From NCBI GenBank assembly GCA_029777095.1, contig JAKOTS010000111.1:19874-83873 (forward strand): a stretch of 64,000 bases of DNA. The letters are read 5' to 3'. This document shows, piece by piece, positions 16,471-53,467 of this stretch. This stretch comes from Actinomycetes bacterium. Its GTDB lineage: Bacteria > Actinomycetota > Actinomycetes > Actinomycetales > Microbacteriaceae. The notes beneath the pieces were generated by a model. That model was not told the origin of the DNA, ran no database searches, and worked only from the letters and a program-made list of their open reading frames with translations. The translations under genes and the position numbers were made by a program. Every line of letters begins with the position of its first letter. Positions within the stretch are counted from its first letter, which is position 1.

Positions 16471-17655
16471 CTACTTCAAGAAGTCGGGGACGTCGAGGTC
16501 ACCGTCGTCGAAGCCTGCGTCGAAACCCGTTGCATCGTTGATCGGCGCGGTGTGTGCTGTGCCGTGTGCGCCGGCACCCACCGAGACGGGTTCGCGCTCG
16601 ATCTTGACTGGGGGCGCCTCGCCGCTCTCGGTCGTAGCGTCGACCTGCGGTGTCGCCACGGCCGGTGCCGCCTGCGCGAGCGCCGGCACGTCGATGCGAG
16701 CCGAAGGCTCACCACCGTCGAACCCCGCGGCGATCACCGTGACGCGCACCTCGTCGCCGAGCGTGTCGTCGATGACCGTTCCGAAGATGATGTTCGCTTC
16801 GGGGTGCGCGGCTTCCTTGACCAGCTGGGCCGCATCGTTGATCTCGAAGATGCCAAGGTTTGAGCCACCCTGGATCGACAGCAGCACGCCGTGCGCACCC
16901 TCGATCGAGGCCTCGAGTAGCGGCGATTCGACGGCGAGCTCGGCAGCCTTGATTGCACGGTCTGCACCTCGGGCAGAACCGATACCCATGAGCGCCGAGC
17001 CAGCGCCCTGCATGACCGACTTCACGTCGGCGAAGTCGAGGTTGATGAGACCCGGGGTCGTGATCAGGTCGGTGATGCCCTGCACACCGGCGAGGAGCAC
17101 CTGGTCGGCCGTGGCAAACGCTTCGATCATCGAGATGCCGCGATCGCTAATCTCGAGAAGGCGGTCGTTCGGCACCACGATGAGGGTGTCGACCTCTTCC
17201 TTCAGCTTTGCAACGCCCAGCTCGGCCTGGCTCTGACGGCGACGACCCTCGAACGAGAACGGCTTGGTGACGACACCGATTGTCAGCGCGCCGATCGACT
17301 TTGCGATGCGTGCCACCACAGGGGCGCCACCGGTACCGGTACCACCGCCCTCACCGGCGGTCACGAACACCATGTCGGCGCCCGCGAGCGCCTCTTCGAT
17401 CTCTTCAGCGTGGTCTTCGGCTGCGCGGCGACCCACCTCGGGGTCGGCACCGGCGCCGAGCCCGCGCGTGAGCTCGCGACCGACGTCGAGCTTGACGTCT
17501 GCGTCACTCATCAACAACGCCTGCGCGTCGGTGTTGATGGCGATGAACTCAACGCCGCGCAGACCAAGATCGATCATCCGGTTGACGGCGTTCACGCCAC
17601 CGCCGCCCACGCCGACGACCTTGATAACGGCGAGGTAATTCTGGTTTGCGGTCAT
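16471..17655 (-). CDS. ftsZ: Cell division protein FtsZ
   Basis: [28 protein letters not shown]; tubulin signature [16 protein letters not shown]-terminal [21 protein letters not shown]. Confidence 0.97.
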
Positions 17656-17676
17656 GCCGGCCCTCCGTGGACTAAA

Positions 17677-17737
17677 ACCTTCAACCTCTACTAGAGGTGT
17701 AAAGAATTGCTCGGTATGCAATTCCTGATTTGAAGGT
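17677..17737 (-). promoter_or_regulatory. Structured ftsZ 5' leader: three nested/adjacent perfect inverted repeats
   Basis: Minus-strand ACCTTCAA-ATCAG-GAATTGC-ATACCGA-GCAATTC-TTTAC-ACCTCTAGTAGAGG-TTGAAGGT, outer 8-bp stem enclosing two hairpins, 11 nt before the SD GGAGGG. Confidence 0.6.
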
Positions 17738-17746
17738 ATGCGGCGG

Positions 17747-17771: not shown

Positions 17772-17830
17772 GGCGTGTCGCAACATTCGCTCCGAGAATC
17801 GCGGCACCGAGCGGCACAACCCGCGTGGTT

Positions 17831-33449: not shown

Positions 33450-33554
33450 GGTTTTCTCGGGTCGAGCCGTGTGTCTCGATCCCCATCCGCTCTGTGACCT
33501 GGCGCCGGGGAAGTGGCGTCAGGGCGTGAGCGGCTGGGAGTCGCGACACAGGGA

Positions 33555-33986
33555 TCAGAACAGGCCCGGGATCACCTCCTCCTCCATCTCGGAGTAGCCA
33601 CTTTCGGTGGCCGCCAGGTAGGTGTTCCAGGCTTCGGCATCCCAGATCTCTGCGTGGCTGCCGGCGCCGATCACGACGAGGTCGCGGTCGAGGCCCGCAT
33701 AGGTGCGCAGGGGAACGGGAAGGGTGATGCGGTTTTGGGTGTCGGGGAGCTCGGAGCTCGCACCCGACAGGAACATGCGCATGAAGTCACGCGCCTGCTT
33801 GTTCGAAAGTGGGGCCTGGCGAATGCGCTCGTGCACCTGCTCGAATTCGGCGGTGCTGAACACGTAGAGGCAGTTCTCCTGCCCCCTGGTGACGACGATG
33901 CCGCCAGCGAGTTCTTCGCGGAACTTCGCGGGCAGGATGACGCGACCTTTGTCGTCGAGCTTCGGAGTATACGTGCCTAGCAGCAT
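33555..33986 (-). CDS. mraZ: Division/cell wall cluster repressor MraZ
   Basis: [26 protein letters not shown]. Confidence 0.95.
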
Positions 33987-51493: not shown

Positions 51494-52039
51494 TTATGCC
51501 GTGCGGACCGAGCGACGCGCTGCGAGCTCGTCCATGGGGTCTGGCGACTGCGGGTCGAGCTCGACGAGCGTGCTCTCAACCTCGCGGAGCACCTTGCCGA
51601 CGGCGATGCCGAAGACGCCCTGGCCGCGGCTGACGAGGTCGATGACCTCGTCGTTTGAGGTGCAGAGATAAACACTGGCGCCGTCACTCATGAGTGTCGT
51701 GCCTGCAAGATCGTGGATGCCGGCCGCCCGCAGTTCTTCGACGGCGGTGCGGATCTGCTGGAGCGAGATGCCCGTGTCGAGAAGGCGTTTCACGAGCTTC
51801 AGCACCAGGATGTCGCGGAAGCCGTAGAGGCGCTGCGAACCAGAACCGCTCGCGCCGCGCACGGTGGGCTGCACGAGCTCGGTGCGCGCCCAGTAGTCGA
51901 GCTGACGGTACGTGATGCCGGCCGCGCGCGCGGCAACAGCGCCGCGGTAGCCAGCGTTGTCGTCGATATCGAGCAGGCCGTCGGTGAACAACAGTTCGGC
52001 GTCGAATCGATGCGTGCCGACCGAGTCGCTTCCGTGCAT
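51494..52039 (-). CDS. MerR family transcriptional regulator (Rv1830-like)
   Basis: GYRGAVAARAAGITYRQLDYWARTELVQPTVRGASGSGSQRLYGFRDILVLKLVKRLLDTGISL. Confidence 0.85.
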   Translation of the reverse strand: MHGSDSVGTHRFDAELLFTDGLLDIDDNAGYRGAVAARAAGITYRQLDYWARTELVQPTVRGASGSGSQRLYGFRDILVLKLVKRLLDTGISLQQIRTAVEELRAAGIHDLAGTTLMSDGASVYLCTSNDEVIDLVSRGQGVFGIAVGKVLREVESTLVELDPQSPDPMDELAARRSVRTA

Positions 52040-52245
52040 CCCCGTGCCTCCCCTGTGTGAATCCTTCGGCGGGTTACTCCCCTGCCTTCTCCCACGCTAG
52101 TGGTGATGAAGTGGAGTGGCTGTGACATCCGCTGAATGAAATTGGCGTGTCGGCCCCGCGGCGTTCTGAGCAGTCTACGCCCTGGTCTGAAAAGCCCTCT
52201 CGAACCGGTCAACCACGGCGAGCGACCCTGAATTTTGGTGCGTGT

Positions 52246-52944
52246 CTACGGGATCAACCGCGTGAGCGCGGATGCCACGAACGCCTGTCGCACGTCGTCG
52301 AGACGCCGCGCAAGCTCGGGCGCAAGTTCGCTTGCCTTGGCCCGGCTTCCTGCGTCTTGACGCCGCAGCAGCACCGAAAGTGACGACTCGATGAGCGCAA
52401 CTTCGCGCTCTGCGCTTGCCCGCATCGCGCGCAGGTGGCGCGGCTCAATGCCGTGACGATCGAGGGCGACGAGCGCACGCATCATCGAGATCGTGTCTTC
52501 ACCGTAGTGCTCGGCAGGCGCGATGATCCCCGTGCTAATCGCATCGTTCAGGAGTTGGGGCGCGGCACCAGTGCTGCTGAGGAGGTCGGTGCGGCGATAC
52601 CGGCGGCCGGCAGGAATGATCGTTGGCGGCGGCTCGTGGGTCTGGCCAGGATGCGACGGGCTCCGCCCAGCATCAAGATCGCCGAGGTAGTCGCGAATCA
52701 CGCTGTGCGGCATGTAGTGATCGCGCTGCAGCGTCAGCGCAACTCGCAACCGTTCGACGTCGTTCGGCGAGAACTTGCGGTAACCCGAGTCGGTCCGTGA
52801 GGGCGTGACAATGCCCTGCACCTCAAGAAACCGGAGCTTCGAGGCCGAGAGCTTCGGAAAATCTGGCGTCAGGCGCGCGAGCACCTGCCCAATGCTCAGC
52901 AATCCCGAGCCGGTCGCGTCTTCCCTTGCCGCCGAGGCCGACAT
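52246..52944 (-). CDS. ftsR: MerR-like regulator FtsR (Rv1828-like)
   Basis: LLSIGQVLARLTPDFPKLSASKLRFLEVQGIVTPSRTDSGYRKFSPNDVERLRVALTLQRDHYMPHSVIRDYL. Confidence 0.85.
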   Translation of the reverse strand: MSASAAREDATGSGLLSIGQVLARLTPDFPKLSASKLRFLEVQGIVTPSRTDSGYRKFSPNDVERLRVALTLQRDHYMPHSVIRDYLGDLDAGRSPSHPGQTHEPPPTIIPAGRRYRRTDLLSSTGAAPQLLNDAISTGIIAPAEHYGEDTISMMRALVALDRHGIEPRHLRAMRASAEREVALIESSLSVLLRRQDAGSRAKASELAPELARRLDDVRQAFVASALTRLIP

Positions 52945-52954
52945 GCCGTGGCGC

Positions 52955-53467
52955 CTAGCCCGCGGCCCGAGACAGGTCGCGAGGCGAGACGAAGAAGGTG
53001 AGACGGAACTTTCCGATGCGCACCTCGGAGCCATTCGAGAGCGTCCCGCGATCGAGACGCTCACCGTTCACATACGTGCCGTTCAACGACCGCTGGTCGA
53101 CGATCTCGAATGCAGCACCCGCACGGGTGATTTCGGCGTGCCGGCGCGACACCGTCACGTCGTCAAAGAAGATATCGGCCTCGGGGTGACGCCCGACCGT
53201 GGTCACATCGCTGTCGAGGAGGTACCGCGCGCCAGCCGTCGGACCGGAACGCACCAGGAACAGCGCAGCACCGGCCGGCAACGCCGCGATGGAGTCGCGT
53301 TCGGTCGCGGTCAGATCAGCACCAAACGGCACAAAGGAGAGGTCAGAATCGTGACCAAAAGTCTGCGTCGTATCGTGCATCCCCGTTGCGGGGCCTGAGG
53401 CGTGCTGCCCCGGGCGCACCACATCGTCGTGGCCTTGCTGATCCGATCCAGACACTGTGTCTCCCAT
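52955..53467 (-). CDS. FHA domain protein (GarA/OdhI-like)
   Basis: GARYLLDSDVTTVGRHPEADIFFDDVTVSRRHAEITRAGAAFEIVDQRSLNGTYVNGERLD; N-terminal DTTQTF. Confidence 0.9.
   Translation of the reverse strand: MGDTVSGSDQQGHDDVVRPGQHASGPATGMHDTTQTFGHDSDLSFVPFGADLTATERDSIAALPAGAALFLVRSGPTAGARYLLDSDVTTVGRHPEADIFFDDVTVSRRHAEITRAGAAFEIVDQRSLNGTYVNGERLDRGTLSNGSEVRIGKFRLTFFVSPRDLSRAAG

Follow-up and report, generated by a model that had tools for sequence, protein, structure and literature searches.

Does the short region upstream of ftsZ in this actinomycete encode a folded regulatory RNA, or does it hold DNA sites that control transcription? The question is raised by three nested complementarities on the minus strand just upstream of the ftsZ Shine-Dalgarno sequence, within a 64,000-nucleotide stretch of a Microbacteriaceae contig (hereafter, the window, meaning that whole stretch). 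An annotation made from the sequence alone (hereafter, the first-pass annotation) had read them as a structured cis-regulatory RNA and had offered, as an alternative, that one of the dyads could be a DNA operator for an FtsR-type regulator. On sequence evidence we consider it highly probable that a compact DNA-level transcriptional control region, composed of a distal WhiA/Wbl-type promoter and an FtsR operator, explains the ftsZ upstream region. The features are collected in Table 1.

Table 1. Features of the ftsZ control region and the ftsR gene in the window
Feature	Position	Strand	Basis
ftsZ	16471–17655	−	TIGR00065, 409 bits, cut-off 295; ATG at 17655
ftsZ Shine-Dalgarno, GGAGGG	17661–17666	−	sequence
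FtsR operator (predicted), 25-bp imperfect inverted repeat ACACCTCTAGTAGAGGTTGAAGGTT	17676–17700	−	published motif, matrix, conservation
Microbacteriaceae ftsZ block (window GAATTGCATACCGAGCAATTCTTT; family GAAWTGCATACTGAGCATAACTTT)	17701–17724	−	family alignment; contains 7-bp hairpin
Predicted transcription start region, distal promoter	17724–17728	−	inferred from −10; A17726 favoured, leader ~71 nt
TACCTT, predicted −10 hexamer (TANNNT), distal ftsZ promoter	17733–17738	−	conservation, fixed spacing to GACAC and FtsR site
GACAC, WhiA-type box (in GCGACACGC)	17775–17779	−	36 bp upstream of −10-like hexamer; motif and spacing
ftsR, MerR-family regulator	52246–52944	−	NF050798, 239 bits, cut-off 150; adjoins odhI/garA

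The apparent three-way junction

The outer stem pairs ACCTTCAA (17737–17730) with TTGAAGGT (17684–17677), the middle hairpin pairs GAATTGC (17724–17718) with GCAATTC (17710–17704), and the third stem pairs CCTCT (17697–17693) with AGAGG (17689–17685). On re-reading, both the sequence and the coordinates given for these complementarities in the first-pass annotation were correct. The minus-strand ftsZ leader RNA of 111 nt folds to a three-way junction with a predicted energy of −37.5 kcal/mol (z −2.1), and its 63-nt core, a region selected post hoc, reaches −22.3 kcal/mol (z −4.6). Perfect nested 8+7+5 designs occurred in dinucleotide-Markov simulations at a mean of 0.96 per 64-kb strand and were present in 11 of 25 simulations; the geometry is not rare in a window of this size.

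Covariation and conservation of the fold

Across the aligned ftsZ upstream regions of 84 Microbacteriaceae, the outer stem shows no covariation (paired fraction 0.706, versus 0.706 in shuffled alignments), and the same holds for the CCTCT/AGAGG dyad (0.812 versus 0.829), for which a separate test agrees. Pairing over the whole structure is in slight excess (67.8% versus 65.8% shuffled), and this excess was traced to the 4-bp dyad inside the middle stem. For the outer stem the 84-sequence paired-fraction test is better than the whole-structure test, because the alignment used in the latter is ungapped at the −10 hexamer. The support from covariation that a conserved junction would carry is thus absent from two of the three stems and from most of the third, leaving a slight positive signal in the inner dyad.

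The fold itself is poorly kept. RNAalifold returned a consensus of 0 pairs over 60 relatives, a multibranch minimum free energy fold was found in 5 of the 84 relatives, and the full outer stem likewise in 5. The full 7-bp hairpin occurs in 2 of the 84, namely the window and one congener (L003), and is lost even inside the genus, for which five other congeneric genomes, L003 among them, were sampled. Averaged over the family, the fold z is −1.64 when the operator is included and −0.51 when it is left out. No Rfam family matched the ftsZ leader at the gathering score, a search at E 10 again returned none there, and a literature search for an ftsZ leader RNA in Actinobacteria found no relevant paper.

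A junction that controls translation or transcript elongation is on these results very improbable. The RNA of the window does fold well, its closest relative (L003) shows the same fold, and read-through from ftsQ could still yield an RNA carrying both arms of the outer stem. However, the complete stems are confined to the few relatives counted above, pairing in the outer stem and the dyad does not rise above shuffles, the consensus is empty, and the outer stem has as its 5′ arm a conserved −10-like hexamer that is expected to be untranscribed. The structured RNA favoured in the first-pass annotation was consequently rejected, on the lack of covariation in two stems, the empty consensus and the missing Rfam match. 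The proposal resembles the mraW RNA and further cis-regulatory RNAs of Rfam in that the structured leader would belong to the same region of cell-division genes, but the ftsZ leader differs from them in having no Rfam match at E 10 and in a junction that covariation does not support. The mraW RNA (RF01746) is present in the window at 33457–33559 on the minus strand (62.4 bits) and is its only Rfam match at the gathering score.

A predicted distal promoter

Most of the 5′ arm of the outer stem is contained in TACCTT, the predicted −10 hexamer. In the 84 distinct Microbacteriaceae upstream regions aligned, the left arm reads as TACCGT, TAACGT, TACCTT and other variants of TANNNT, with the A and the final T kept in 84 of 84 and the middle bases varying. 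Taking TACCTT as the −10 places the predicted start near A17726, so that the arm at 17730–17737 would lie outside the RNA.

The hexamer has fixed partners on both sides. In the window the upstream GACAC (17779–17775) is separated from position 17738 by exactly 36 bp. The GACAC–TANNNT spacing is 35–38 bp in 96 of the 117 Micrococcales ftsZ upstream regions, which is every case where both were found, with gaps of 10–60 bp allowed and the pair nearest to 36 chosen among several; distance histograms made without this choice have the same peaks. On the downstream side, 32 bp lie between the hexamer and the FtsR operator in the window, and of 30 genomes taken from other families of the class, 26 have a TANNNT sequence 27–33 bp upstream of the FtsR site.

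GACAC is described as the WhiA footprint motif in PMC3781837, and the box is here assigned as WhiA-type with the caveat that the motif is short and common. PMC4850268 and PMC3781837 report that WhiA and WhiB directly activate ftsZ in S. venezuelae. The present region is like that Streptomyces promoter in that GACAC lies upstream of ftsZ and that the genome encodes WhiA, together with two WhiB-like (Wbl) proteins. It is unlike it in that WhiA binding is a prediction here, and the comparison carries no implication of sporulation. A fixed GACAC–TANNNT spacing of 36/37 bp is not stated for the Streptomyces promoter in the excerpted portions of the two papers.

Against the distal promoter, a −35 hexamer could not be discerned, and a promoter scan found none, although that scan was tuned to the sigma-70 consensus. 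An ECF-type −10 (CGTC) was rejected by inspection, as it is absent in the window (TACCTTC) and there is no conserved GGAA −35. Between GACAC and the −10, at the expected place of a −35, the window carries an inverted repeat (CGCGCCCTCACCGCCTGAGGGCGCG, 17771–17747, minus strand) whose 10-bp arms match perfectly and enclose a 5-nt loop. This repeat is found in the window only among ~91 relatives, the next longest being 7 bp, and it is not followed by a T-run.

A predicted FtsR operator

Two further parts of the junction belong to a second DNA element. The CCTCT/AGAGG "hairpin" and the 3′ arm of the outer stem are contained together in one 25-bp site (17700–17676), and the alternative that FtsR might recognize one of the dyads as DNA is well supported by the sequence, the dyad extending to 25 bp to include that arm. 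In C. glutamicum the FtsR site at ftsZ was identified by ChAP-seq and EMSA as a 25-bp inverted repeat, AACCCTAAAGTAAAGGTTGAGGGTA (PMC6683498), which shares 18 of its 25 positions with the site in the window. A matrix was refined on the 117 Micrococcales upstream regions, and the site was recovered in nearly all of them; with the window's genus left out, it scores the window operator at 32.0 bits, and the next best score elsewhere in the 64 kb is 3.1. A search for the core pattern that tolerated one mismatch gave a single occurrence in the 2.4-Mb genome.

The operator is kept across Microbacteriaceae and the wider class, in the promoter or leader region of ftsZ. A point against the reading is that at least four congeners have it 27–55 nt from the start codon instead of 16–20 nt. 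In the window it ends 9 nt before the Shine-Dalgarno sequence and would span approximately +27 to +51, counted from the predicted distal start. The right half of the operator holds an NANNNT sequence, in which A20 is present in 100% and T24 in 99% of the Micrococcales upstream regions.

The same study predicted the FtsR site to be conserved in actinobacterial ftsZ promoters, with the Rv1828 site as the counterpart in M. tuberculosis (PMC6683498). The site in the window shares with both the form of a 25-bp inverted repeat, the core sequence and the location upstream of ftsZ. Its position, however, is unlike either: in C. glutamicum the site from which FtsR activates ftsZ has its centre at −73 relative to the start mapped by RNA-seq, and the Rv1828 site lies between the −35 and −10 of P1 (PMC6683498).

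The regulator gene is encoded in the same window, 35 kb from the operator, and its assignment as FtsR, suggested in the first-pass annotation, was confirmed by its family model (Table 1). As in C. glutamicum, ftsR adjoins an odhI/garA-like gene; this neighbour (52955–53467) encodes an OdhI/GarA-like FHA protein whose OdhI match (E 3.9e-45) is below the cut-off of that model. A second MerR gene is also adjacent, so that odhI/garA, ftsR and this gene lie together within 51494–53467. A bifunctional nuclease gene stands between ftsR and the second MerR gene in the FtsR paper (PMC6683498); only ~206 bp separate the two in the window, from which the nuclease gene appears to be missing.

Breadth of the architecture

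A composite pattern (GACACGC, 32–36, TANNNT, 24–36, FtsR core) was searched in 85,462 species genomes. Among the matches listed, 75 of 80 loci are within 450 bp upstream of an FtsZ N-terminal motif, and all 80 carry actinobacterial names. As the spacing was imposed by the pattern, this result supports the link to ftsZ and not the spacing.

The middle block

Between the −10 hexamer and the operator lies the block that contains the 7-bp hairpin. At two mismatches or fewer its family form is single-copy in 30 of the 60 Microbacteriaceae genomes searched, and the reversed control pattern gave 0. The inner dyad, WTGC-N7-GCAW, is paired in 79% versus 71% in shuffled alignments, and 0 of 500 shuffles were as high, a weak covariation of a kind that related sequences can also produce. 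In addition to this 4-bp dyad, the block shows a GCATA direct repeat spaced 9 bp. An upstream open reading frame from the WTG of the block was rejected, since in 27 of 55 relatives with the start it stops inside the operator and its frame relative to ftsZ varies.

Other Actinomycetes have TTGACATAACT at this place, and an exact TTGACA, 7 bp ahead of the FtsR site, is present in 18 of 30 genomes of the class. Microbacteriaceae most often have TGAGCA where other families have TTGACA, and the window has CGAGCA. In ftsZ upstream regions of other actinomycetes (for example L152, L157 and L163), TTGACATAACTNTAA is likewise conserved, placed exactly 7 bp ahead of the FtsR site. In the other Actinomycetes GAGGNT, which is NANNNT-like, follows TTGACA by 19 bp, compatible with a MerR-type 19-bp promoter. 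The sequences are suggestive of such a promoter around the FtsR site in other families, but not in the window.

Two readings of the block can be weighed. With a chance approaching even, it may serve another regulator as an operator or promoter element in the DNA, corresponding in Microbacteriaceae to the TTGACATAACT block. The correspondence of TGAGCA to TTGACA at the same place and the strong conservation of the primary sequence point this way, although no known regulator was matched and a general regulator would be expected at more than one site per genome. It could instead be that WTGC-N7-GCAW forms a small hairpin at the 5′ terminus of the distal transcript, through which mRNA stability or initiation might be influenced in Microbacteriaceae. 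The pairing excess of the inner four pairs includes A-U to U-A exchanges, and the block, unique in each genome that has it, begins just past the predicted start. We regard the hairpin as rather unlikely, however: it has only four pairs, with two of the outer three absent in nearly all relatives, kinship inflates the pairing test, the primary sequence is as conserved as the pairing, and a DNA dyad fits the same signal.

Proposed control of ftsZ

In the preferred reading, GACAC 36 bp upstream of TACCTT would constitute a distal ftsZ promoter that starts near 17726 and is presumably activated by WhiA with a WhiB-like protein. FtsR would bind the 25-bp operator 32 bp below the −10, and its binding would set ftsZ transcription. 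It could do so by activating a proximal promoter that overlaps the site, or it could act, as a roadblock or by modulation, on polymerase moving off the distal promoter. Both activation and block or modulation are candidates because the geometry of the site is unlike that of C. glutamicum and M. tuberculosis. The NANNNT in the right half of the operator weakly favours the overlapping proximal promoter.

The outer stem is assembled from pieces of two separate DNA elements, a point that the first-pass annotation had missed. The apparent junction arises because the −10 sequence TACCTTCAA by chance resembles the FtsR half-site AACCTTCAA, which lets it pair with the right half of the operator, and its third stem is the operator's own dyad. 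Since the junction is mostly a coincidence of a −10 box and an FtsR site, the locus is a further example of known ftsZ control and not a new riboregulator. For Microbacteriaceae we put forward, tentatively and with the balance against it, a more particular arrangement. The FtsR operator would lie inside the transcribed leader near the Shine-Dalgarno sequence, FtsR would act as a roadblock or via an overlapping proximal promoter, unlike in C. glutamicum, and the ftsZ-specific middle block, with its covarying 4-bp dyad, would bind a factor or form a 5′-terminal hairpin.

Overlapping protein sites and promoter boxes can mimic an RNA junction. What had appeared as a plausible RNA switch is replaced by a conserved DNA architecture, in which GACAC, 36/37 bp, TANNNT, 28–33 bp and the FtsR site follow one another, and this architecture gives exact mutations for asking how WhiA and FtsR share the control of ftsZ in Actinomycetes.
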